This document shows, piece by piece, positions 35,683 through 46,987 of a DNA stretch of 64,000 bases. Origin of the DNA: Deferrisoma camini S3R1 (GTDB lineage Bacteria; Desulfobacterota; Deferrisomatia; Deferrisomatales; Deferrisomataceae); the NCBI RefSeq assembly GCF_000526155.1, contig NZ_JAFN01000001.1:3950001-4014000 (forward strand), written 5' to 3'. The position numbers and the translations under genes are program-made. Numbering within the stretch: position 1 is the stretch's first letter; the number at the start of each line of letters is the position of its first letter. The notes beneath the pieces are model-generated. The model made no database searches and was not told where the DNA came from. It saw only the letters and a program-made list of their open reading frames with translations.

Positions 35683-36285
35683 TCAGGCCTGCTGCTCCTC
35701 CCGCGGGAACAGGATCCCCTCCACCAGCACGTAAGCGGCCTGGAGCCAGGAGGTGGGGCACAGGGGGAAGCACTCCTTGCACTTCCAGCACTCCCGGGCC
35801 GCGATGTCCGGGACGAAGGCGATCTCCTTCTTCGTGCCCCGGTTGATGAAGCCCACGGCGTGCTTCTTCTTGACCTCGGCGCAGTAGCGCACGCACAGGC
35901 CGCAGTGGATGCAGAAGGACGACTCCTTGTCGAACCGGTCCTTGTCCGCTCCGTACTCCTCGGCCAGGGCCTTGAGCCGGGGAGCCTCGGGGGCGTGGGC
36001 CAGGTACAGCTCCAGGATCACCCGCCGGATCCGCTCGATCTCGGGGGTGCGGGTGCGCACGGTCAGGCCCTCGGCCACGGGGTAGACGCACGAGACCACG
36101 TGCTGCTTGCGGCCGCCGCGCTCCACCTCCACGGTGCACAACCGACAGCTCCCGAAGGGCTCGAGCTTCTCGTGGTGGCACAGGGTGGGGATCGGGATCC
36201 CGGCGCCCTGGGCCGCCTCGAGCACGGTCGCGCCCTCCGGCGCCGCGACCTCCTGGCCGTCGATCTGCAGGCGAACTTCGCTCAT
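35683..36285 (-). CDS. bamI: BamI-like iron-sulfur subunit (NuoG N-terminus-like)
   Basis: The 200-residue protein has an N-terminal [2Fe-2S] ferredoxin domain (LEAAQGAGIPIPTLCHHE, FGSCRLCTVEV, VVSC) and two [4Fe-4S] motifs, CIHCGLCVRYC and CWKCKECFPLC. This equals the N-terminal part of NuoG without the molybdopterin domain. In the class II benzoyl-CoA reductase of Geobacter the BamG, BamH and BamI subunits resemble NuoE, NuoF and NuoG. The ATG at 36285 is preceded by AGGGAC, which belongs to the CTAG target of a 237-base element inserted immediately upstream. Confidence 0.82.
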   Translation of the reverse strand: MSEVRLQIDGQEVAAPEGATVLEAAQGAGIPIPTLCHHEKLEPFGSCRLCTVEVERGGRKQHVVSCVYPVAEGLTVRTRTPEIERIRRVILELYLAHAPEAPRLKALAEEYGADKDRFDKESSFCIHCGLCVRYCAEVKKKHAVGFINRGTKKEIAFVPDIAARECWKCKECFPLCPTSWLQAAYVLVEGILFPREEQQA

Positions 36286-36289
36286 GTCC

Positions 36290-36526
36290 CTAGTGCTCCG
36301 TTTCGCAAAAACGTATGCGGATTGCGTCGGTGGGGCTGGGGGCTCCGACGAAGCGCGACGGCCGAGCAGCCCGGGCCGCCCGGCGCCAGGGGAGCGGCCG
36401 CGGCGCGTGCCCTCACGCGCCGCAGCGGACCGCGCCGAGGCGGCCCCTGCGAGGCCGTTCAGCGAAGGAGGGGCCCCCAGCCCCACCCCCTGGGAAAACC
36501 ACGGAATTTCGGAAACGCTACACTAG
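36290..36526. mobile_element. CTAG palindromic MITE-like element (copy 2), inside the bam operon
   Basis: The element is bounded by CTAG at 36290 and CTAG at 36523, with CTAGTG and CACTAG ends and the arms CCGTTTCGCAAAAACG and CGGAAACG. The inner inverted repeat is GGTGGGGCTGGGGGC against GCCCCCAGCCCCACC. The core matches copies 3 and 4 in the opposite orientation. The right CTAG contains the complement of the bamH stop codon TAG. No transposase is encoded; open frames in it are GC-rich artefacts. Confidence 0.88.
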
Positions 36527-38442
36527 CCTCTTGCACGCACGGTCCGCTGGTCCTCCGGCAACGGCGGGGGGACCGGCTCTCCGGAGATCTTGCGCACGGC
36601 GCCGAACCGATCAGGGCACACCTCCAGGCAGGTTCCGCACTTGGTGCACAGGTCCTGGTCGATCTGGTGGATCACGTTCTTCGCGCCCGAGATCGCCTCT
36701 GCCGGGCACTTGCGGCGGCACCGGCCGCAGGCCCGGCACCTGTCGGGATCGATGTGGAAGGCGATGAGGTCCTTGCAGGAGAGCGCCGGGCAGCGATTCT
36801 CGCGGATGTGGGCCTCGTACTCGTCCCGGAAGTAGCGCAGGGTGCTCAGGAAGGGGTTGGGCGCGCTCTTGCCCAGCCCGCACAGGGCCGCCTCCTTGGC
36901 CACCACCGACAGGTCCTCCAGGATCTCCAGGTCGCCATCTCTGCCCTCGCCCCGGCAGATGCGGGTGAGCACGGCGAGCATCTGGCGCAGGCCCTCGCGG
37001 CAGGGCACGCACTTGCCGCACGACTCGTCGGTGAGGAACTCGATGAAGTACCGGGCGACGTCCACCATGCAGGTGTCCTCGTCCATGACGATCATGCCGC
37101 CCGAGCCCATCATCGAGCCGGCCTGGGTCAGCTCGTCGAACCCCACGGGCAGGTCGAGCATGTGCTCGGGCAGGCACCCGCCCGAGGGGCCGCCGGTCTG
37201 CACGGCCTTGAGCCTCTTGCCGCCCGGGATGCCGCCCCCGATCTTGTAGACGATGTCCCGCAGGGGCATGCCCATGGGCACCTCGACCAGGCCGGTGTTG
37301 GTGATCTTGCCCACGATCGAGAAGATCTTGGTGCCCGAGCTCGTCTCGGTGCCGATGCGGGTGAACCAGTCGGCGCCGTTCTGGATGATCAGGGGCACGT
37401 TGGCCCAGGTCTCCACGTTGTTGAGCACGGTGGGCCGGTTCCACAGCCCCCGCACGTTGGAGCGGATGTACTTGGGCCGGGGCTCGCCCACCCGGCCCTC
37501 GAGGGCGGTCATGAGCGCGGTGGACTCGCCGCACACGAACGCGCCCGCGCCCCGGTGCACCTTCACCCGGAACGAGAACCCCGACCCCAGGATGTCGTCG
37601 CCCAGGAGCCCCAGCTCCTCGGCCTTCTGGATGGCCAGGGTCACGTTCTCCACGGCCAGGGGGTACTCCTGACGCACGTACACGTACCCCTCGTGGGCCC
37701 CCACCGCGTAGGCGCCCAGGATCAGGCCCTCGAGCACGGCGTGGGGGTTGCCCTCCAAGAGGCTCCGGTCCATGTACGCGCCGGGGTCGCCCTCGTCCGC
37801 GTTGACCACCACGTACTTGACCGGGTCGGGGGCGTTGCGGGTGCCCTCCCACTTGATCCCGGCCGGGAACCCGCCGCCCCCCCGGCCCCGCAGGTTGGCC
37901 CGCTTGACCTCGTCGAGCACCTGCTCCGGGGTCATCTCCGAGAGGGCCTTGGCCAGGGCCGAGTACCCGCCGATGGCCACGTAGTCCTCGATGCTCTTGG
38001 GGTCGATGCTCCCGTTCGACCCGAACACGATGCGCTGCTGGTGCTTGTAGAAGGGGATCTCGTCCTCCCGGGCGAGGGGGTCGCCCGAGTCCGGGTCCAC
38101 GTACAGCAGCCTCTCGACCCGTTCGCCGGCCTTGACGGTCTTCTCGATGATCTCGGGCACGTCGGCGGCCGTGAGCTGGAAGTAGCAGACCGACTCGGGC
38201 TGGATCACGAGGATCGGGCCCCGCTCGCAGAACCCGTGGCACCCGGTCAGGCGCAGGTGGACCCGGTCGGCCAGGCCCTGCTTTGCGAGCTCCACCCGGA
38301 CGGCCTCGGCCACGTCGTTGCAGCCGCAGGCGTGGCAGGCGGAGCCGGCGCACAGGGTGATGCACGGCTGGTCCGGGGCCCGGTCGGCGAGAACGGCCTT
38401 CCGGAACGCTTCCAGTTCGGCCGGGGAGTGCAGGCGTTCCAT
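36523..38442 (-). CDS. bamH: BamH-like NADH-binding flavoprotein subunit (NuoF-like)
   Basis: The 639-residue protein has an N-terminal thioredoxin-like [2Fe-2S] part (CITLCAGSACHACGC, GCHGFCERGP), an NADH and FMN module (RGRGGGGFPAG, VVNADEGDPGAYMDR), the [4Fe-4S] motif ESCGKCVPCREG, and a C-terminal pair CRACGRCRRKCP and CTKCGTCLEVCP. This is the HndC/NuoF-type architecture. In the Bam complex it would exchange electrons with NAD(H). The ATG at 38442 lies 8 bases after the bamG stop. Confidence 0.88.
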   Translation of the reverse strand: MERLHSPAELEAFRKAVLADRAPDQPCITLCAGSACHACGCNDVAEAVRVELAKQGLADRVHLRLTGCHGFCERGPILVIQPESVCYFQLTAADVPEIIEKTVKAGERVERLLYVDPDSGDPLAREDEIPFYKHQQRIVFGSNGSIDPKSIEDYVAIGGYSALAKALSEMTPEQVLDEVKRANLRGRGGGGFPAGIKWEGTRNAPDPVKYVVVNADEGDPGAYMDRSLLEGNPHAVLEGLILGAYAVGAHEGYVYVRQEYPLAVENVTLAIQKAEELGLLGDDILGSGFSFRVKVHRGAGAFVCGESTALMTALEGRVGEPRPKYIRSNVRGLWNRPTVLNNVETWANVPLIIQNGADWFTRIGTETSSGTKIFSIVGKITNTGLVEVPMGMPLRDIVYKIGGGIPGGKRLKAVQTGGPSGGCLPEHMLDLPVGFDELTQAGSMMGSGGMIVMDEDTCMVDVARYFIEFLTDESCGKCVPCREGLRQMLAVLTRICRGEGRDGDLEILEDLSVVAKEAALCGLGKSAPNPFLSTLRYFRDEYEAHIRENRCPALSCKDLIAFHIDPDRCRACGRCRRKCPAEAISGAKNVIHQIDQDLCTKCGTCLEVCPDRFGAVRKISGEPVPPPLPEDQRTVRARG

Positions 38443-38450
38443 GGTTTCCC

Positions 38451-38903
38451 TCAGTCGTGGTTCCGAAGGGCCTCCGCCGTTTCGGCAGGGGTCATCTTCC
38501 CGTAGGTCTTGCCGTCGATCTCCATGACCGGGCCGAGGGCGCAGCAGCCCAGGCAGTTGACCGTCTCGAGGCTGAACTTGAGCTCCAGGTCGGTCTCGCC
38601 CGGCTTGATGCCGGTGGCCTCCTGCACCGCGTCGAGCACCCGCTGGGCTCCCCGCACGTGGCAGGCCGTGCCCATGCACACGTGGATGCGGTGCCGGCCC
38701 TTGGGAACCGTGCTGAACGCCTTGTAGAACGTGGCGATGTGGAGGATCCGCGACAGGGGCACCCGGAGCCGTTCGGCGACCCGCTCGAGGGCCTCCTGCG
38801 GAAGCCAGTTGTTCTCGGTCTGGATGTCCAGGAGCACCTGGATGAGGTAGCTCTCGTCCGCTCCGTACCGGTCGATGATCTGATCCACCCGTGCGATGTC
38901 CAT
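38451..38903 (-). CDS. bamG: BamG-like [2Fe-2S] subunit (NuoE-like)
   Basis: The 150-residue protein matches the NuoE family: an N-terminal helical part (DQIIDRYGADESYLIQVLLDIQ, here described as the usual helical bundle) and a thioredoxin-like [2Fe-2S] domain with HVCMGTACHVRGA and NCLGCCALGPV. The four cysteines are present. It pairs with the BamH-like protein. The ATG at 38903 is preferred; upstream frame runs through repeats. Confidence 0.87.
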   Translation of the reverse strand: MDIARVDQIIDRYGADESYLIQVLLDIQTENNWLPQEALERVAERLRVPLSRILHIATFYKAFSTVPKGRHRIHVCMGTACHVRGAQRVLDAVQEATGIKPGETDLELKFSLETVNCLGCCALGPVMEIDGKTYGKMTPAETAEALRNHD

Positions 38904-39007
38904 GTCGTCGTCCACCCTGTTAAGCCGGCGGTGAAACCGTCGCGATCCCCTCCCTGCTCGGGAGGGCGAGGGGCCTGCCGGAGAGCGTGATGCGGGGCCT
39001 TCGCCCC

Positions 39008-39180
39008 GCTGGGCGGCCAGGCTGCTAGGCAGCCGGGCGGCTCTCGGGCCCGCCAAATAATCGGGGTATGGTCTAGTCTCTAGTTTCTTGTCTCTAGTTT
39101 CTGGCCTCTGGCCGGCCGGAGGCAGGTCCCTCGCCCCGTCTCGGGAAAAACGCGCCCGGTTTGCTGCCGGGTTGCTCAAC
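39008..39180. repeat. Octamers, CTAG heptads and hairpin repeat E between bamF and bamG
   Basis: Octamers GCTGGGCG, GCCAGGCT, GCTAGGCA and GCCGGGCG run from 39008. Six heptads begin CTAG, CTAG, CTTG, CTAG, CTGG and CTGG at 39072, 39079, 39086, 39093, 39100 and 39107. Repeat E follows from 39111 (CCGGAGGCAGGTCCC). These fill the gap 38904-39175 inside the operon. Confidence 0.88.
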
Positions 39181-39946
39181 CGACGGATCCCAGTGCGTAC
39201 CGCTTCTGGGAGAGGTCGTACCGGATCACCCCCCGGGCCACTGCCGCGGCCAGGTACCGGGACGCCTCGGAGGGGCTCAGGCCCAGGCGCTCCGCGATCT
39301 CTGCCGTGGCGAGCGGCGAGGCGCGAAGGAGCAGGGCCACCCGGGCCATGATCCACTTCTCCACCACCGCCTCGTCGATGACCCGGTCCACGTCGTGGTG
39401 CGCGAAGAACGCCTCGTAGGCCTCCGGGGACGGCAGCCCCGGGTTGAGCTTCTCCGCCAGGATCATCCGCAGGTACGGCACGATCGACTCCAGGGCGTCG
39501 AGGCCGTTGCGCAGGCGGTCCGGGTCGAGCCCCTCGCTCCGGCCCAGGGGGCCCAGCTCGCGGACCTGCGCGGTGAAGGCGTCGGTGGCCTCGGCGAACC
39601 GCGCGCCCTCGCCGCTGGAGAGGAACTCGATCCCGATCCGCCGCGGGTCGAGGCCCAGGCGCTCGAGGAGCCGCTTGCAGAGGTGGGTGAGCCGCAGCGC
39701 GTGGAAGTTCCCGTGGGTGGTGTAGTTGCACTCGCCGAGGCGGCACCCCACGATGAACACCCCGTCCGCGCTCTTGGAGAACGCCCGGAGCACGAACCCG
39801 AGGTCCACGCGTCCCGTGCACATCACCCGCACGAGCCGAATGTCAGCCTTGTACTGTAGCCTGGAAACTCCGGCTAGGTCCGCAGACCCGTAGCCTCACC
39901 AGTGGCAGACGAAACCCAGGATCTTCGCTTGATACTCCTGAGCCAT
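39176..39946 (-). CDS. bamF: BamF-like selenoprotein (MvhD family), TGA read as selenocysteine
   Basis: The full gene is 257 codons with an in-frame TGA at codon 17 (39896-39898). The text before it is MAQEYQAKILGFVCHW and after it GYGSADLAGVSRLQYKADIR, which aligns with the MvhD N-terminus where a cysteine or selenocysteine sits after CxW. Downstream come RVMCTGRVD, CRLGECNY and a C-terminal winged-helix-like part. AAGGAGG precedes the ATG at 39946. A strong hairpin follows the TGA. MvhD-type subunits carry electrons between partner enzymes and HdrA-like flavoproteins. Starting at 39832 instead would lose the conserved N-terminus. Confidence 0.9.
39872..39898 (-). promoter_or_regulatory. Putative SECIS hairpin of bamF
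   Basis: Directly after the TGA the RNA reads GGCUA, CG, GGUC, UGCG, GACC, UAGCC, which folds into a 5+4 base-pair hairpin. The GGUCU part resembles the apical GGUCU of the E. coli fdhF element recognised by SelB. Confidence 0.65.
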
Positions 39947-39967
39947 GTTCGTCCTCCTTGTGGAATC

Positions 39968-40030
39968 GGTCGTCGGTCGTCAGTCGTCGGTCACCCGTCA
40001 CCCGTCACTCGTCACCGATCGTCGGTCACC
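39968..40030. repeat. Nine GGTC-type heptads
   Basis: nGTC/GATC words start at 39968, 39975, 39982, 39989, 39996, 40003, 40010, 40017 and 40024, exactly period 7 over nine units. The array overlaps the last codons of bamE and reaches the bamF ribosome site region. Confidence 0.9.
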
Positions 40031-43000
40031 CGCCGGCCAGGGCGGCGTCGATCTGGCCCTCGAACTCGTCGTCGGTGAAGTGCTTGAGCGAGATCGCGCC
40101 GGTGGGGCAGACCACGTTGCACAGGCCGTCGCCCTTGCACAGCACCGGGTTGACCTCGGCTCGGCCGTTGGCGCCCAGCTCCACCGCGCCGTAGGAGCAC
40201 GCCGCCACGCACTGGCCGCACGAGACGCACTTGTCCTCGTCCACCACGCACACCGCGCCCGAGGCCACCACCGTGTCGTGGGACAGCAGGGCCACCACCC
40301 GGCCGGCCGCGCCCTGGGCCTGGCTGATCGTCTCGGCCAGATGCTTCGGGTACTGGGCGGCTCCGCACAGGTACACGCCGTCGGTGGCGAAGTCCACGGG
40401 CCGGAGCTTGACGTGGGCCTCCTTGAAGAACCCGTCCGGGCCCAGGGCCACCTGGAACATCTGGGCCACCTGGGGGTTGTCCTCGCGGGGCACCGCGGCC
40501 GCGGCCAGGGACACCACGTCGGCGTCGATGGCGAGCTCCTTCCCGAGGATCGGGTCGGTCACCCGGACCCGCAAGACCTTGCGGCCCCCTTCCTCCACGG
40601 CCGCCACCTCGGGCCGGGCCTCGGGCACGTACCGGATGAACGTGACGCCCTTGCCCGAGGCCTCCCGGTAGGCGTCCTCCCGAAGGCCGTAGGTGCGCAT
40701 GTCGCGGAACAGCACGTACACGTCCGCGGCAGGGTTGACCTCCTTGAGCCTGAGGGCGTTCTTCACGGCGTGGTTGCAGCACACCCGGGCGCAGTAGTTG
40801 CGCTCTTCGTTGCGGCAGCCCACGCACTGGATCATCGCCACGCTGCCGGCCCCCAGCAGCCGCTCGTCGTCCCGGGCCAGGGCCTCCTCCAGCTCCAGGT
40901 GGGTCATCACCCGCTCGTCCTGGCCGTAGAGGTACTCGGTGGGGCGGTGCTCGGCCGCGCCCGTGGCGATGACCGTGGCCCCGTGGTGGAGGTCGCGCAC
41001 CCGGCCCCGCACCTCGACCCGGGTCACGAAGTTGCCCACGTAGCCCCACGCGTCGGTGACCTTGGCGCCGGTGAGCACGTGGACCAGGGGGTGGCGGTAC
41101 ACCTTCCACACCAGGTCCCGCACGAACGCCTGCACGTCCAGGCCCTCGAGCGTGTGCTGGAGCCGGCTCGCCGTGCCCCCGAGCTCCCGCTCGCGCTCCA
41201 CCAGGTACACGGGGTGGCCCTGCTCGGCGATGTGCAGGGCCGCGGTCATGCCGGCCACGCCGCCGCCCACCACCAGGGCCGCCTTGGTGACCGACAGGTC
41301 GAACTCCTGCAGCGGCTCGAGCCGGGCGGCCCGGGCCACGGCCATGCGCACCAGGTCCAGGGCCTTGGGGGTGGCCCGGTCCTTCTCCTTGGCGTGCACC
41401 CAGGAGCAGTGCTCCCGGATGTTGGCCATCTCCAGGTAATACTGGTTGAGGCCGGCCTCCTTCAGGGTGTCGCGGAACAGCGGCTCCAGGGTCCGGGGGG
41501 AGCACGCCGCCACCACCACCCGGTTGAGGCGCTGCTCCTGGATCACCTTGGTGATGTCCTGGGCCGAGTTGGTGGCGCACGAGAAGAGCTGCTCGTCCGC
41601 GAACACCACGTGGGGGAGCTTGCGCACCTCCTCCACCACCGAGGGCACGTTCACGATCCGGCCGATGTTGGCCCCGCAGTGGCACACGAACACGCCGATG
41701 CGAAGCTCCTCGGCCGAGGTGTCCCGCTCCAGGGGGTAGCGCCGCTCCGTGGCCAGCTTGCCGCGCCGCCGGTCCAGGAGCCGGCCGCACTGGGACCCGG
41801 CCGCGCTGGCGCTGAACACCGACTCGGGGATGTCGGTGGGGCCCTGGAACGCGCCGCTCACGAACACCCCGGGCCGGCTCGTCTCCACCGGGTTCGAGGG
41901 GGATGCCTGCACGAACCCGTGGTCGTTGAGGTCCACGCCGAAGGTCTCGGCGAGCCGCTCCACGTCGGCCGGCGGGGTGAGCCCCACCGACAGCACCACC
42001 AGGTCGAACTCCTCCTCCTTGACGCCCTCGTCCGGGGTGCTGTAGCGCACGGTCACGTTCTTGGTCTCGGGGTCCTCCCGCACGATCGATGCGTAGCTGC
42101 GGATGAACCGGACCCCGGGCAGGGCCTCGGCGCGCTGGAAGTAGGTCTCGAAGTCCTTGCCGTAGGCCCGGATGTCGTTGTGGAACACCGTGCACTCGAC
42201 CCCGTCGTCGTGCTCCTTGGTCAGGAGCACCTGCTTCTGGGTGTAGGTGCAGCACACGGCCGAGCAGTAGCTGTTGGCGCCCTCGCGCACCTGGCGGGAG
42301 CCCACGCACTGGAGCCACGCCACCCGGCGGGGGTGCCTCAGGTCGGACCGGCGCAGGATCTGGCCCTGGAACGGCCCGGTGGCGCTCATGAGCCGCTCGT
42401 AGTCCATGCTGGTCACGACGTTGGCGAACTCGCCGTACCGGTACTCCCGGAGCAGCTTCGGATCGTAGGGCTCGAACCCGGGCGAGAGGATCACCGCCCC
42501 CACCCGGACCTCCCGGGTCTCCTCGGACTGGGTGAAGTCGATCGCTCCGGCCTTGCACACGGCCGAGCAGATGCCGCACTTCTTCTCTTTCAGGTACAGG
42601 CAGCTCTCGTCGATGTACGTGATGAGCGGAACGGCCTGCGAGAAGTAGACGTGGATGGCCTTGTTGAGGGAGATCTCCTGGTTGAACGGGTCCGGGTACT
42701 GCACGGGGCAGTACTCCACGCACACCGTGCACCCGGTGCACTTATCCTCGATGACGTACCGGGGCTTCTTCTTCAGGACGACCCGGAAGTTTCCGGCCTC
42801 GCCCCGGACGTTTTCCACCTCGGTGTAGGTGAGGACCTCGATGTTTGGCTGCCGGCCGACCTCGACCAGTTTGGGCGAGAGAATTCACATGGAGCATTCG
42901 TTGGTGGGGAACGTCTTGTCCAACTGCGCCATGTGGCCGCCGATGGAGGGGCCCGACTCCACCAGGTACACCTTGAACCCGGCGGAGCTGAGGTCGAGCG

Positions 43001-43115
43001 CGGCCTGGATGCCGCTGACGCCGCCTCCCACCACCAGCACGTCGCCGAACTCGCCGTCTCCGAGCTTCCTGAACACCCCTTCCGCCTGCAGTCGGTCCAC
43101 CAGTTCCTTCGCCAT
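40026..43115 (-). CDS. bamE: BamE-like selenoprotein (HdrA-type flavin iron-sulfur protein), TGA read as selenocysteine
   Basis: The full gene is 1029 residues with in-frame TGA at codon 77 (42885-42887), in the context [16 protein letters not shown]; the equivalent HdrA position is Cys or selenocysteine. Before it lies an FAD motif ([15 protein letters not shown]). After it come [17 protein letters not shown]-type cluster motifs, a second HdrA-like FAD module ([19 protein letters not shown]) and C-terminal clusters [11 protein letters not shown] and [10 protein letters not shown]. HdrA proteins bifurcate electrons, and BamE is expected to do so for benzoyl-CoA reduction. The sequence 42819-42884 between the two open parts is in frame and family-like, so this is one gene, not two. 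Confidence 0.9.
42852..42887 (-). promoter_or_regulatory. Putative SECIS hairpin of bamE
   Basis: Fifteen bases after the TGA the RNA reads CUGGUC, GAGGUC, GGCCGG: a 6-pair stem (two G-U pairs) with a GAGGUC loop. The GGUC in the loop and its distance from the codon are close to those of the E. coli fdhF element. Confidence 0.6.
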
Positions 43116-43213: not shown

Positions 43214-44365
43214 CTACAGGGCCTCCCTCACGATCTCGGTGAGGTCCATGACCCTGAGCGCGTCGTCGCCCTTGAGGGCGAGCCGGCTGTCCTCGAAGTT
43301 GGAGATGCAGTAGGGGCACGACGTGGCGAGCACCCGGGCCCCCGCGTCCAGGGCCTGGGCCACCCGCAGGTCCGAGAACCTCTCGCCCTTGGGGGTGTCC
43401 ATCCAGATCCGGCCCCCGCCCCCGCCGCAGCACAGGCTGTCCTCCCGGTTGTCGGCCATCTCCACGAGCTCCACCCCGGGCACGCGCCGGAGGACCTCGC
43501 GGGGCTCGTCGTAGAGCCCGTTGTGGCGGCCCAGGTAGCAGGGGTCGTGAAAGGTGACCTTCAGGGGGACCTCGCGGGTGAGCTCGAGCCGGCCCCGCTC
43601 GATCAGGTCGAGCAGGAACTGGCTCATGTGGACCACCTCGAAGTGGACCATGAACTCGGGGTACTCGTTCTTGAAGGTGTGGTAGCAGTGGGGCGACGAC
43701 ACGAGCACCCGGCGCACCCCCCGGTCGATGAACGCCTTGATGTTCTGCCGGGCCAGCTTTTTGAACGCCTCCTCGTCGCCCGCCTTTCGGATGCTCTCGC
43801 CGCAGCAGCTCTCGGCCTCGCCCAGGATGCCGAACTCCACCCCGGCCCGCTGGAGGATCTCGGCCGTGGCCGCGGCCACCTTCTTCAGCCGGCTGTCGTA
43901 GCTGAAGTAGCAGCCGGCGAAGTAGAGGATCTCCATCTCCTCGGAGAACGGCCGCACGCCCAGGGCCTCGGCCCAGGCCCCCCGGGCCTCCCGGGGCTCC
44001 CCGAAGGGGTTGCCCTGGGTGCTCAGGTTGCCGCTCACCCCCCGCACGGGCCGCACGTTCTCGGGGAACACCCCGTACTCCGTGGCGATCCGCCGCAGGG
44101 CCATCCCCGAGTCGATCTGGCGCACGTCCCGGGGGCAGCGCTGGGGGCACCGGCCGCAGGTGGTGCAGCGCCAGATCTCCTCGTTCTCGATCTCGGTCAT
44201 GCCGAACGCGGCCTGGCGCACGATCTTTCGCATGCTGAACCGGCGCACCCGGTTCCACGGGCACACCACGTCGCACATGCCGCACTGGAAGCAGCGTCGG
44301 AACGCCTCGCCGCCGGCGCCTTCGATCAGCTCGGCGATCTCTTTGTAGTCGGCTACGTTCTCCAC
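43214..44365 (-). CDS. bamD: BamD-like iron-sulfur protein (HdrD/GlpC-type, two CCG domains)
   Basis: The 383-residue protein has two [4Fe-4S] ferredoxin motifs (CFQCGMCDVVCP, CTTCGRCPQRCP) and two CCG domains, the first with AESCCGES and the second with DSLCCGGGGG, plus DPCYLGRHNG. CCG domains bind non-cubane clusters in heterodisulfide reductase. In the Bam complex this subunit would link the HdrA-like BamE with the BamBC core. GTG at 44365 has GAGGGG upstream. Spacing to bamC is 33 bases. Confidence 0.87.
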   Translation of the reverse strand: MENVADYKEIAELIEGAGGEAFRRCFQCGMCDVVCPWNRVRRFSMRKIVRQAAFGMTEIENEEIWRCTTCGRCPQRCPRDVRQIDSGMALRRIATEYGVFPENVRPVRGVSGNLSTQGNPFGEPREARGAWAEALGVRPFSEEMEILYFAGCYFSYDSRLKKVAAATAEILQRAGVEFGILGEAESCCGESIRKAGDEEAFKKLARQNIKAFIDRGVRRVLVSSPHCYHTFKNEYPEFMVHFEVVHMSQFLLDLIERGRLELTREVPLKVTFHDPCYLGRHNGLYDEPREVLRRVPGVELVEMADNREDSLCCGGGGGRIWMDTPKGERFSDLRVAQALDAGARVLATSCPYCISNFEDSRLALKGDDALRVMDLTEIVREAL

Positions 44366-44398: not shown

Positions 44399-44956
44399 TC
44401 AGTCCTTTTTGGCGAGCCGGGCCACGGTCTCGAGCACCTTGTCCATGCCGAACCGGTCCACGAGCGACTCGAGCCCCAGCTCCACCTCCTCGGGCCGCGG
44501 CTCCTCCTCCGCCTCGTCCACCTCGACCTCCACCTCTTCGTAGGTCAGGGCGTCCACGAGGCACCACTTCACGCACAGGGGCTCGTCCACCTCGGGCACG
44601 CTCTCGCACATGTCGCACTTGAGCGGGAGCCCCGAGTCGGGCTCCTTGAAGTCGGCCCGGGAGGGGCAGGCCGCCCGGCAGAAGGCGCACTCGTCGTAGA
44701 ACTTGCCCTCCAGGGTGTAGGTGTTGCGGCCCATGCACTCGGCCGGGGTGTACTCGCCGGCGTACACCGGCAGGTAGATGTCCCGCAGGGGATCCGTGAT
44801 CACCCGGATGCGGGCCCGTGCCGGGTTGTTCGTGCTGTACTTGGGCGACGCGTGGAACGCCGAGCAGATCATCTCGCAGGCCCGGCAGCCGTTGCACTTG
44901 TCCGCATCCACGTGGATGCGCTTGATGATCTTGGTCTTTTTCGTCTTCTCAGGCAT
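44399..44956 (-). CDS. bamC: BamC-like ferredoxin subunit
   Basis: The 185-residue protein has [4Fe-4S] motifs CNGCRACEMICS, CAFCRAACP and CDMCESVPEV with a following CVKWC, like the small electron-transfer subunits of AOR-type enzymes. An acidic tail (EVEVEVDEAEEEPRPEEVE) ends the protein. BamC passes electrons to the tungsten subunit BamB. The ATG lies 25 bases after the bamB stop. Confidence 0.87.
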   Translation of the reverse strand: MPEKTKKTKIIKRIHVDADKCNGCRACEMICSAFHASPKYSTNNPARARIRVITDPLRDIYLPVYAGEYTPAECMGRNTYTLEGKFYDECAFCRAACPSRADFKEPDSGLPLKCDMCESVPEVDEPLCVKWCLVDALTYEEVEVEVDEAEEEPRPEEVELGLESLVDRFGMDKVLETVARLAKKD

Positions 44957-44980: not shown

Positions 44981-46987
44981 TCACTCTGCCGGCGTCTGCT
45001 CGGTCTTGGGCTGGGCCCCGGAGGCGTCCTCCTCCTTGAGGATTCCCCGCTCCAGGAACTCCTGGGCCACGTAGTCCAGGCCCAGGGCCTCCAGGGTCTC
45101 CTTCGTGGGGATGCCGTCCTCGTTCCACCCCTTGAACTTGTAGTAGGTGTCCAGGAGCTCCTTCTCCAGCTCGGGGAACCGGTGCTTCCAATGGTTCTCG
45201 GGGGGCTTCTCGTCCTTGCGGCGCATGCCCCGGCGGATGTTGTTGGCCCGCACCAGGGTGCGGTAGCGCCGGGCCGCCTGTTTGAGCGTGTCCTCGTCCA
45301 TCTCGAACCCGGCTCCGGCCGAGATGATCTTGGGGTAGTTGTGGATGTGGTACGGGGGCTTCAGGGGGAACGACGACAGCCCGGCGCACATGCCCAGGGC
45401 GTCGTCGATGTAGTGCATCATCTCCTGCCAGTCCACGATGTCGCAGCACATCTGGGGGGTGGGGTAGTAGGGGATCGAGTTCTTGCCCCGGGGCTCCCAG
45501 TCCACGAAGTACTGCTTGAACCGGTCGTCCGGCACCTGGAACCAGTCCTTCACGAACTCCTCGCGCTGCTCCCGGGTGGGGAAAGGGGCCTGGGGGAACT
45601 GGCCCTCGATCTGGGTGATGTTGATCTTCTCCCCCGTGCTGTACATCAGGAAGTAGATGGGGTTGAGCATCGAGAGCTTGAGCGGGAGCTGCTCGTGCTT
45701 CTTGATGGTGTTGTGGGCGTAGGCCTCCGCCCCCTTGCCGATCCGCTTCGCGGCCCAGTAGGTGCCGTCGGCCAGCACGTCTCCGATGCCCTCGCGCCGC
45801 ACGATCCGGTCCAGGAGCCAGTAAAAGCGCTCCTCGTTGTCCTGGGGGAACCCTGGCATGTCCTCGTCGGTGAGGATCCCGTTCTCGTAGAGCTCCACGG
45901 CGAACGCCATGACCTGGGGAGTGGAGAACCCGTCCACCCCGTACTCGGTGGCCCGCTGGGCGATCCGCAGCCCGAACTCCAGGTCCGAGAAGGCCGCCAT
46001 CGTGTAGGTGAGCTTGGAGAAGCACTTCATCATGTAAGTGGGCGTGCCGGGCAGGCTGAGGGTGGCCCCGCACTTCATGGGGCAGTTGTAGCAGCTGATC
46101 AGCCGCTTGCGGGCCTTCTCCATGGTCTCGGTCCACTGCTTCTCGATCTCCTCGGTCCAGAAGCCCTTGCGCCGGACCCGGGAGTTGCCCCACATGAAGT
46201 TCTCGGTGTGCCACTTCTCGTCGTGGATCGCCATCTCCTGGGGGGAGCCCAGGCCCGCCAGGATCGGCATGACCCCCTTGATGGGGTTGGCGGCGCGCCA
46301 CTTGATATAGTCCATCACCTCGTCGCACAGCCGGATGAACTCGTCGGGCCGGGCCACGCTGATGTCGCCCGTGCCGCGCACCGCGATCGCCTTGACCCGC
46401 TTGTCGCCCATGACCGCGCCGAGGCCCTGGCGGCTGGCGCTGGACCGGCCCTGCTCAATGGAGGCGAAGTAGACCCGGTTCTCCCCGGCCAGGCCGATGG
46501 CCGACACCTGGGCCCTGGGCTCGTTCAGCTCCTTCTTGATGATCTCGGCGGTCTCGATGGCGCCCTTGCCGGCCAGGTGCCGGGCGTCGCGGATCTCCAC
46601 CTTGTCGTTGTGGATCCAGATGTACACCAGGTCCGGGGCCTTGCCCCTGAGGATCACCTTGTCGTACCCGGCGTACTTGAGCTCCGGCGCCCAGAACCCG
46701 CCCATCATCGAGAAGGCCATGAGCCGGGTCTGGGGGGAGATGGTCGAGACGATGGTGCGGTTGCACCCGATGGCCGGGGTGCCGCACAGCAGCCCGGCGC
46801 TGAAGATCAGAAGGTTGTCCTCGGAGAACGGCTCCACCTCGGGCGGCACCCGGTCCCACAGGATCTTCGCGTTGGTGCCCAGCCCGCCCAGGTACAGCCG
46901 GGTATCCTCGGGGTCGGTGACCACCTTCTCGATGTTCCCGCTGGACAGGTCGATCTCCAGGTTGACTCCGGTTTCCGCGTACCTCAT
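44981..46987 (-). CDS. bamB: BamB-like tungsten benzoyl-CoA reductase subunit (AOR family)
   Basis: The 668-residue aldehyde ferredoxin oxidoreductase family protein has the N-terminal tungstopterin-binding beta domain (MRYAETGVNLEIDLSSGNIE start, LGGLGTNAKILWDRVPPEVEPF-like pattern) and the central region with cluster ligands SCYNCPMKC. It strongly recalls BamB, the active-site subunit of class II benzoyl-CoA reductase, which dearomatises benzoyl-CoA without ATP. Another aromatic or alicyclic CoA ester as substrate cannot be excluded. The ATG at 46987 is preferred over the open frame running upstream to 47134. It is the first gene of the operon and has a sigma-54-type promoter upstream. Confidence 0.87.
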   Translation of the reverse strand: MRYAETGVNLEIDLSSGNIEKVVTDPEDTRLYLGGLGTNAKILWDRVPPEVEPFSEDNLLIFSAGLLCGTPAIGCNRTIVSTISPQTRLMAFSMMGGFWAPELKYAGYDKVILRGKAPDLVYIWIHNDKVEIRDARHLAGKGAIETAEIIKKELNEPRAQVSAIGLAGENRVYFASIEQGRSSASRQGLGAVMGDKRVKAIAVRGTGDISVARPDEFIRLCDEVMDYIKWRAANPIKGVMPILAGLGSPQEMAIHDEKWHTENFMWGNSRVRRKGFWTEEIEKQWTETMEKARKRLISCYNCPMKCGATLSLPGTPTYMMKCFSKLTYTMAAFSDLEFGLRIAQRATEYGVDGFSTPQVMAFAVELYENGILTDEDMPGFPQDNEERFYWLLDRIVRREGIGDVLADGTYWAAKRIGKGAEAYAHNTIKKHEQLPLKLSMLNPIYFLMYSTGEKINITQIEGQFPQAPFPTREQREEFVKDWFQVPDDRFKQYFVDWEPRGKNSIPYYPTPQMCCDIVDWQEMMHYIDDALGMCAGLSSFPLKPPYHIHNYPKIISAGAGFEMDEDTLKQAARRYRTLVRANNIRRGMRRKDEKPPENHWKHRFPELEKELLDTYYKFKGWNEDGIPTKETLEALGLDYVAQEFLERGILKEEDASGAQPKTEQTPAE

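Follow-up and report, generated by a model that had tools for sequence, protein, structure and literature searches.

Benzoyl-CoA reductase takes part in the bacterial breakdown of benzene rings. The reduction that it carries out is among the most demanding in biology, and the occurrence of selenocysteine (Sec) in the class II form of this enzyme is already known. The study by Peters and colleagues (2004) concerns Sec proteins in the benzoate metabolism of Desulfococcus multivorans, and the title of Loffler and colleagues (2011; reference in PMC4148979) speaks of 'W/Se-containing class II' enzymes. The BamE gene of D. multivorans is split by a Sec UGA with a SECIS element (dmul_C24500/10; PMC5109826), and for Geobacter metallireducens one Sec-FrhD and no Sec-HdrA are listed (PMC1794560). 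Furthermore, CxxU motifs in PF02662 and in HdrA have already been catalogued (PMC13188914, PMC9312934). In the MvhAGD-HdrABC complex, a single [2Fe-2S] cluster is present in MvhD, which passes electrons to the bifurcating flavin of HdrA (PMC6019823). The Sec codon in bamF of Deferrisoma camini S3R1 that we describe here is a sound and, given this background, largely expected finding.

The window, which is the whole analysed stretch of 64,000 nucleotides from D. camini, contains all eight genes bamBCDEFGHI in the order bamB-C-D-E-F-G-H-I on the minus strand, as are all further features of the window given below. They encode BamB, the tungsten benzoyl-CoA reductase catalytic subunit (44981..46987), the ferredoxin-type electron transfer subunit BamC (44399..44956), the HdrC/HdrB-like BamD with CCG domains (43214..44365) and the HdrA-like double flavoprotein BamE (40026..43115; 1029 amino acids with the predicted Sec77). 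These are followed by BamF, which comprises an MvhD/FlpD domain and a C-terminal winged helix (39176..39946; 256 amino acids with the predicted Sec17), by the NuoE-like BamG (38451..38906), the NuoF-like BamH (36523..38442) and the NuoG/HoxU-like ferredoxin subunit BamI (35683..36285). BamB aligns over its full length to 4z3w_A (Benzoyl-CoA reductase, putative) with 1239 bits, the crystallised enzyme from G. metallireducens. Based on the complete gene set and a BamB of the solved type, the cluster is assigned to a putative class II benzoyl-CoA reductase, for which benzoyl-CoA reduction as well as a content of tungsten and iron-sulphur clusters are assumed from the similarity of BamB.

For bamF, the ORF caller gives only a frame of 218 amino acids with a GTG start (39832..39176). 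An earlier note on this DNA had remarked that this frame lacks the MvhD N-terminus, which is indeed the case, and had proposed an upstream extension through one TGA to an ATG preceded by AAGGAGG. This extension was reproduced from the DNA and its translation. Starting from the ATG at 39944-39946, with the Shine-Dalgarno sequence 6 nt upstream (39953-39959), the gene reads MAQEYQAKILGFVCHW-U-GYGSADLAGVSRLQ, contains no more than one TGA in frame (39896-39898) and ends at a normal TGA stop (39176-39178). The in-frame TGA completes the CxxU motif C14-H-W-U17, which lies within the PF02662 FlpD/MvhD domain (BamF residues 9-132, 148 bits). In the solved MvhD chains 7bkb_F, 5odc_D and 8rvu_F, a Cys (CNWC) is aligned to this codon, in agreement with the earlier placement of the TGA at the Cys/Sec position behind the CxW motif.

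Relatives of BamF were looked for in 395 genomes of the phylum. A relative is present in 344 of them, and nearly all of the best matches have exactly one in-frame TGA. The aligned codon was then read in loci retrieved from this set and additionally in 80 loci of named genomes, which together gave 116 distinct proteins. Two of these are other HdrA/MvhD genes of this genome (L096 and L101, 42-44% identical), which are not part of bam clusters and were excluded from the tree and from the bam-type totals. The remaining 114 BamF-type homologues fall into 102 with TGA and 12 with a Cys codon at this position, and no other residue was found. The same TGA is present in two further genomes of the genus. 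Because nearly all of the best relatives have one in-frame TGA and the 114 homologues contain only TGA or Cys, the TGA of bamF does not represent a chance event. The shortened frame found by the ORF caller would fit a true stop, an error or a pseudogene mutation with a restart at GTG 39832, which would yield a BamF protein without its N-terminus. We consider this extremely unlikely in view of the recurrence of the TGA within the genus and in 102 homologues and since the part lost would include both the CxW motif and C14, which is invariant.

The genome (4.24 Mb, one contig) was also checked for the machinery of Sec insertion. It encodes a tRNA-Sec (72.6 bits; tRNA-SeC with anticodon tca (UCA) according to ARAGORN) together with SelA (592 bits), SelB (340 bits, full-length match) and SelD (354 bits), each of them scoring above its curated cut-off. 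The selD gene carries a TGA of its own at the known Sec site (SRTCG-U-AAK; L018 positions 1501-2418, C1:2674710-2675627, minus strand). That several genes of the genome have an in-frame TGA could also be explained by a genome-wide reassignment of this codon, for example to Trp, instead of its recoding to Sec. However, bamF and bamE both end in TGA stops, and TGA is therefore not regarded as reassigned. Moreover, the in-frame TGAs that were examined correspond to conserved Cys or known Sec positions, and the homologues alternate with Cys and never with Trp, which makes a reassignment vanishingly improbable.

Behind the TGA of bamF, the earlier note had described a strong hairpin with a GGUCU stretch. 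This hairpin (GGGUC-UGCG-GACCU, 39876-39889) does appear in the predicted fold, and its resemblance to the GGUCU of E. coli fdhF would favour it as the element that directs Sec insertion. However, its strength was not substantiated, as the 49-nt stretch that starts at the TGA and contains it is no more stable than shuffled sequences (z -0.45). In addition, codons 3-6 after Sec, which build this hairpin, vary among the Sec homologues, and its apical loop starts about 12 nt after the UGA, which is shorter than the usual bacterial distance. It is the codons from Sec+8 to Sec+12 that are frozen instead. In the 102 Sec bamF genes they are nearly fixed as GCT GGA GTT TCC AGA (GCT in 88/96, GGA in 92/102, GTT in 91/102, TCC in 102/102 and AGA in 81/102), which corresponds to the hairpin CUGGA-GUU-UCCAG. 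Together with Sec+14 (CAA in 90/102), they are the six most over-conserved of the 86 synonymous columns tested in bamF (z 15-21); since the sequences are related, these values are descriptive, and the argument is that Sec genes differ from Cys genes at these positions. In the 14 Cys homologues (12 of them bam-type), the codons at the positions Sec+8 to Sec+12 are mixed and AGA does not occur, and the pair table shows that they have lost several stem pairs that are kept in the Sec genes. A compensatory change was found in a second bam-like cluster of this genome (L095), where the Sec bamF stem reads CGGGA-GUU-UCCCG (U-A to G-C), and four Sec bamF genes have a shifted stem, GCCGG/CCGGC, in which pairing is preserved. 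The occurrence of this frozen hairpin in the TGA forms only is a further argument against a true stop.

In D. camini, the conserved hairpin has the form UAGCCGGA-GUU-UCC(a)GGCUA (39857-39876) and is indicated by the synonymous freeze, the pair table and the fold. It deviates from the consensus stem in that a C.A position is resolved by a bulged A in this genus. Its 27 nt fold with -8.7 kcal/mol (z -2.24), and 6 of 200 shuffles were equally stable. An Rfam scan of the bamF site returned no known RNA family. Compared with synonymous recodings, the overall folding energy did not separate the Sec genes of bamF (mean z +1.0), and the mean for bamE was -0.8. As whole-segment folding energy is thus uninformative for bamF and mildly informative for bamE, we relied on synonymous-site conservation and the pair tables. 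These support the downstream GGA-GUU-UCC hairpin as the putative SECIS element of bamF and leave it very unlikely that Sec is inserted under the direction of the GGUCU hairpin. The proposal that the gene encodes BamF and that its TGA is read as Sec is supported by the presence of the sel machinery, by homologues that have TGA or Cys and no third residue, by a conserved SECIS hairpin that is confined to the TGA forms and by the complete bamBCDEFGHI cluster. Neither of the two findings that the earlier note named as counter-evidence was made, since the Sec machinery genes are present and the homologues have no sense codon other than Cys at this site. Judging from these sequence comparisons, bamF is almost certainly a selenoprotein gene that codes for a subunit of a class II (W/Se) benzoyl-CoA reductase, with the UGA read as Sec and the hairpin at 39857-39876 directing its insertion.

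A second in-frame TGA, which the earlier note had missed, is located in bamE. The true start of this gene is the ATG at 43115; the start at 42818 given by the ORF caller is false and hides the TGA (42885-42887), which is the only one in frame. It would place Sec in C74-S-M-U77, the HdrA CxxU motif, and solved HdrA chains have CSMC at this site (8rvu_a aligned). At the aligned position, 59 of the bamE homologues have TGA and 28 a Cys codon, without a third residue. The putative SECIS hairpin of bamE, CUGGUCG-AGGU-CGGCCGG (42852-42869), retains all 7 pairs in 58 of the 59 Sec homologues, whereas the stem is absent in the 28 Cys genes. Its stem changes include a compensatory replacement of C-G by A-U in six Sec genes and of U-G by U-A in eight. 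In bacteria, a SECIS element is a hairpin that follows the UGA at a short distance and has a G among the first two nucleotides of its loop. In agreement with this, the loop of the bamF hairpin is GUU and begins 27 nt past the UGA, and that of the bamE hairpin is AGGU and begins 22 nt past it. With both elements located, Sec insertion becomes directly testable. Six BamE loci show CST-U or CSI-U instead of CSM-U, and these loci also have the compensatory A-U for C-G change in the SECIS stem. In D. camini, both bamF and bamE are shortened by gene callers, and the annotation would lose the key parts for electron transfer, namely the CxW-U of BamF and the N-terminal flavin domain of BamE with its CxxU.

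Regarding the mechanism, SelB with tRNA-Sec(UCA) would decode the UGA at 39896-39898 as Sec, directed by the hairpin at 39857-39876, and BamE-Sec77 would use a SECIS of its own. In the CxWC motif of this MvhD-type [2Fe-2S] subunit, Sec17 would stand in for the second Cys and is probably a ligand or neighbour of the cluster. On the proposed path of the electrons, Sec17 would be placed between BamGHI, the NAD(H)-type module, and BamE, the bifurcating HdrA-like subunit. By analogy with MvhAGD-HdrABC, BamF-Sec17 and BamE-Sec77 would then both lie on the path that leads from BamGHI to the low-potential branch towards BamBC. Elsewhere in the genome, there is a further MvhD-domain gene with an in-frame TGA (L022 positions 1501-1869, C1:1843159-1843527, minus strand). 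Its TGA is found at another conserved Cys, equivalent to C68 of BamF (GADGAFVAG-U-LEGDCHY), and its CxxC site reads CHHC. This gene possibly contains Sec at another likely cluster-ligand position.

The states of both sites could be compared across bam-type clusters. BamE and BamF are Sec/Sec in 59 clusters, Cys/Sec in 20 (Geobacter type) and Cys/Cys in 7, and Sec/Cys does not occur; for the other BamF-type loci (23 Sec-BamF, 5 Cys-BamF), no bamE start was located on the sequence that had been retrieved. The two sites are thus nested, with BamE-Sec never accompanying BamF-Cys. On the tree of the 114 BamF proteins, a single change accounts for the Sec/Cys state of BamF, and two changes account for that of BamE. 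Due to this small number of independent events, the absence of the BamE-Sec/BamF-Cys combination is no proof of coupling. Three genomes contain a Sec/Sec bam cluster together with a Cys/Cys paralogue. In the second bam-like cluster of D. camini (L095, C1:2905110-2909153), BamE is 69% identical and has Cys, and the BamF-like gene has a TGA (CNW-U-AYGSADL). From the sequence comparisons, we tentatively suggest, as a possibility that we hold to be rather doubtful, a widespread double-Sec class II benzoyl-CoA reductase (BamE-Sec and BamF-Sec, 59 clusters), whose Sec content per protomer would be double that of the Geobacter form. In the clusters compared, BamE-Sec occurs only together with BamF-Sec, and in several genomes a Sec-poorer paralogue accompanies the Sec/Sec cluster. 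If this reading were true, both sites may act in a coupled manner to tune the bifurcating electron path, and the clusters may serve different substrates or selenium conditions. The nested pattern provides naturally paired complexes, in some cases from a single genome, with which the contribution of selenium to this demanding reduction can be studied. In the part of the literature that was covered, we found no description of the nested distribution or of double Sec as the most frequent state, and we do not claim novelty for either.

Compared to the described systems, the cluster of D. camini shares gene order and protein families with the Geobacter type, and the same bamF TGA occurs in Geobacter argillaceus, Geomonas and Geotalea. 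These Geobacteraceae have BamE-Cys and BamF-Sec, whereas in D. camini BamE is predicted to contain Sec as well. The complex of G. metallireducens has reportedly two selenocysteines per dimer, which fits a BamE-Cys/BamF-Sec state. This state also agrees with the single Sec-FrhD and the lack of a listed Sec-HdrA in that organism (PMC1794560). BamE-Sec is common to D. camini and D. multivorans, but BamF-Sec is not listed as such for the latter (PMC5109826), while D. camini would have Sec in both subunits. The archaeal and bacterial FrhD/MvhD/VhuD selenoproteins (PF02662) share with BamF both the domain and the location of CxxU within it. BamF differs from them by an additional C-terminal winged helix, a bacterial in-gene SECIS and its membership in a cluster for benzoyl-CoA reductase rather than in a hydrogenase complex. 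Similarly, BamE has U at the CxxU position of the archaeal and deltaproteobacterial HdrA selenoproteins, but this HdrA contains two flavoprotein domains and is encoded within a bam cluster.
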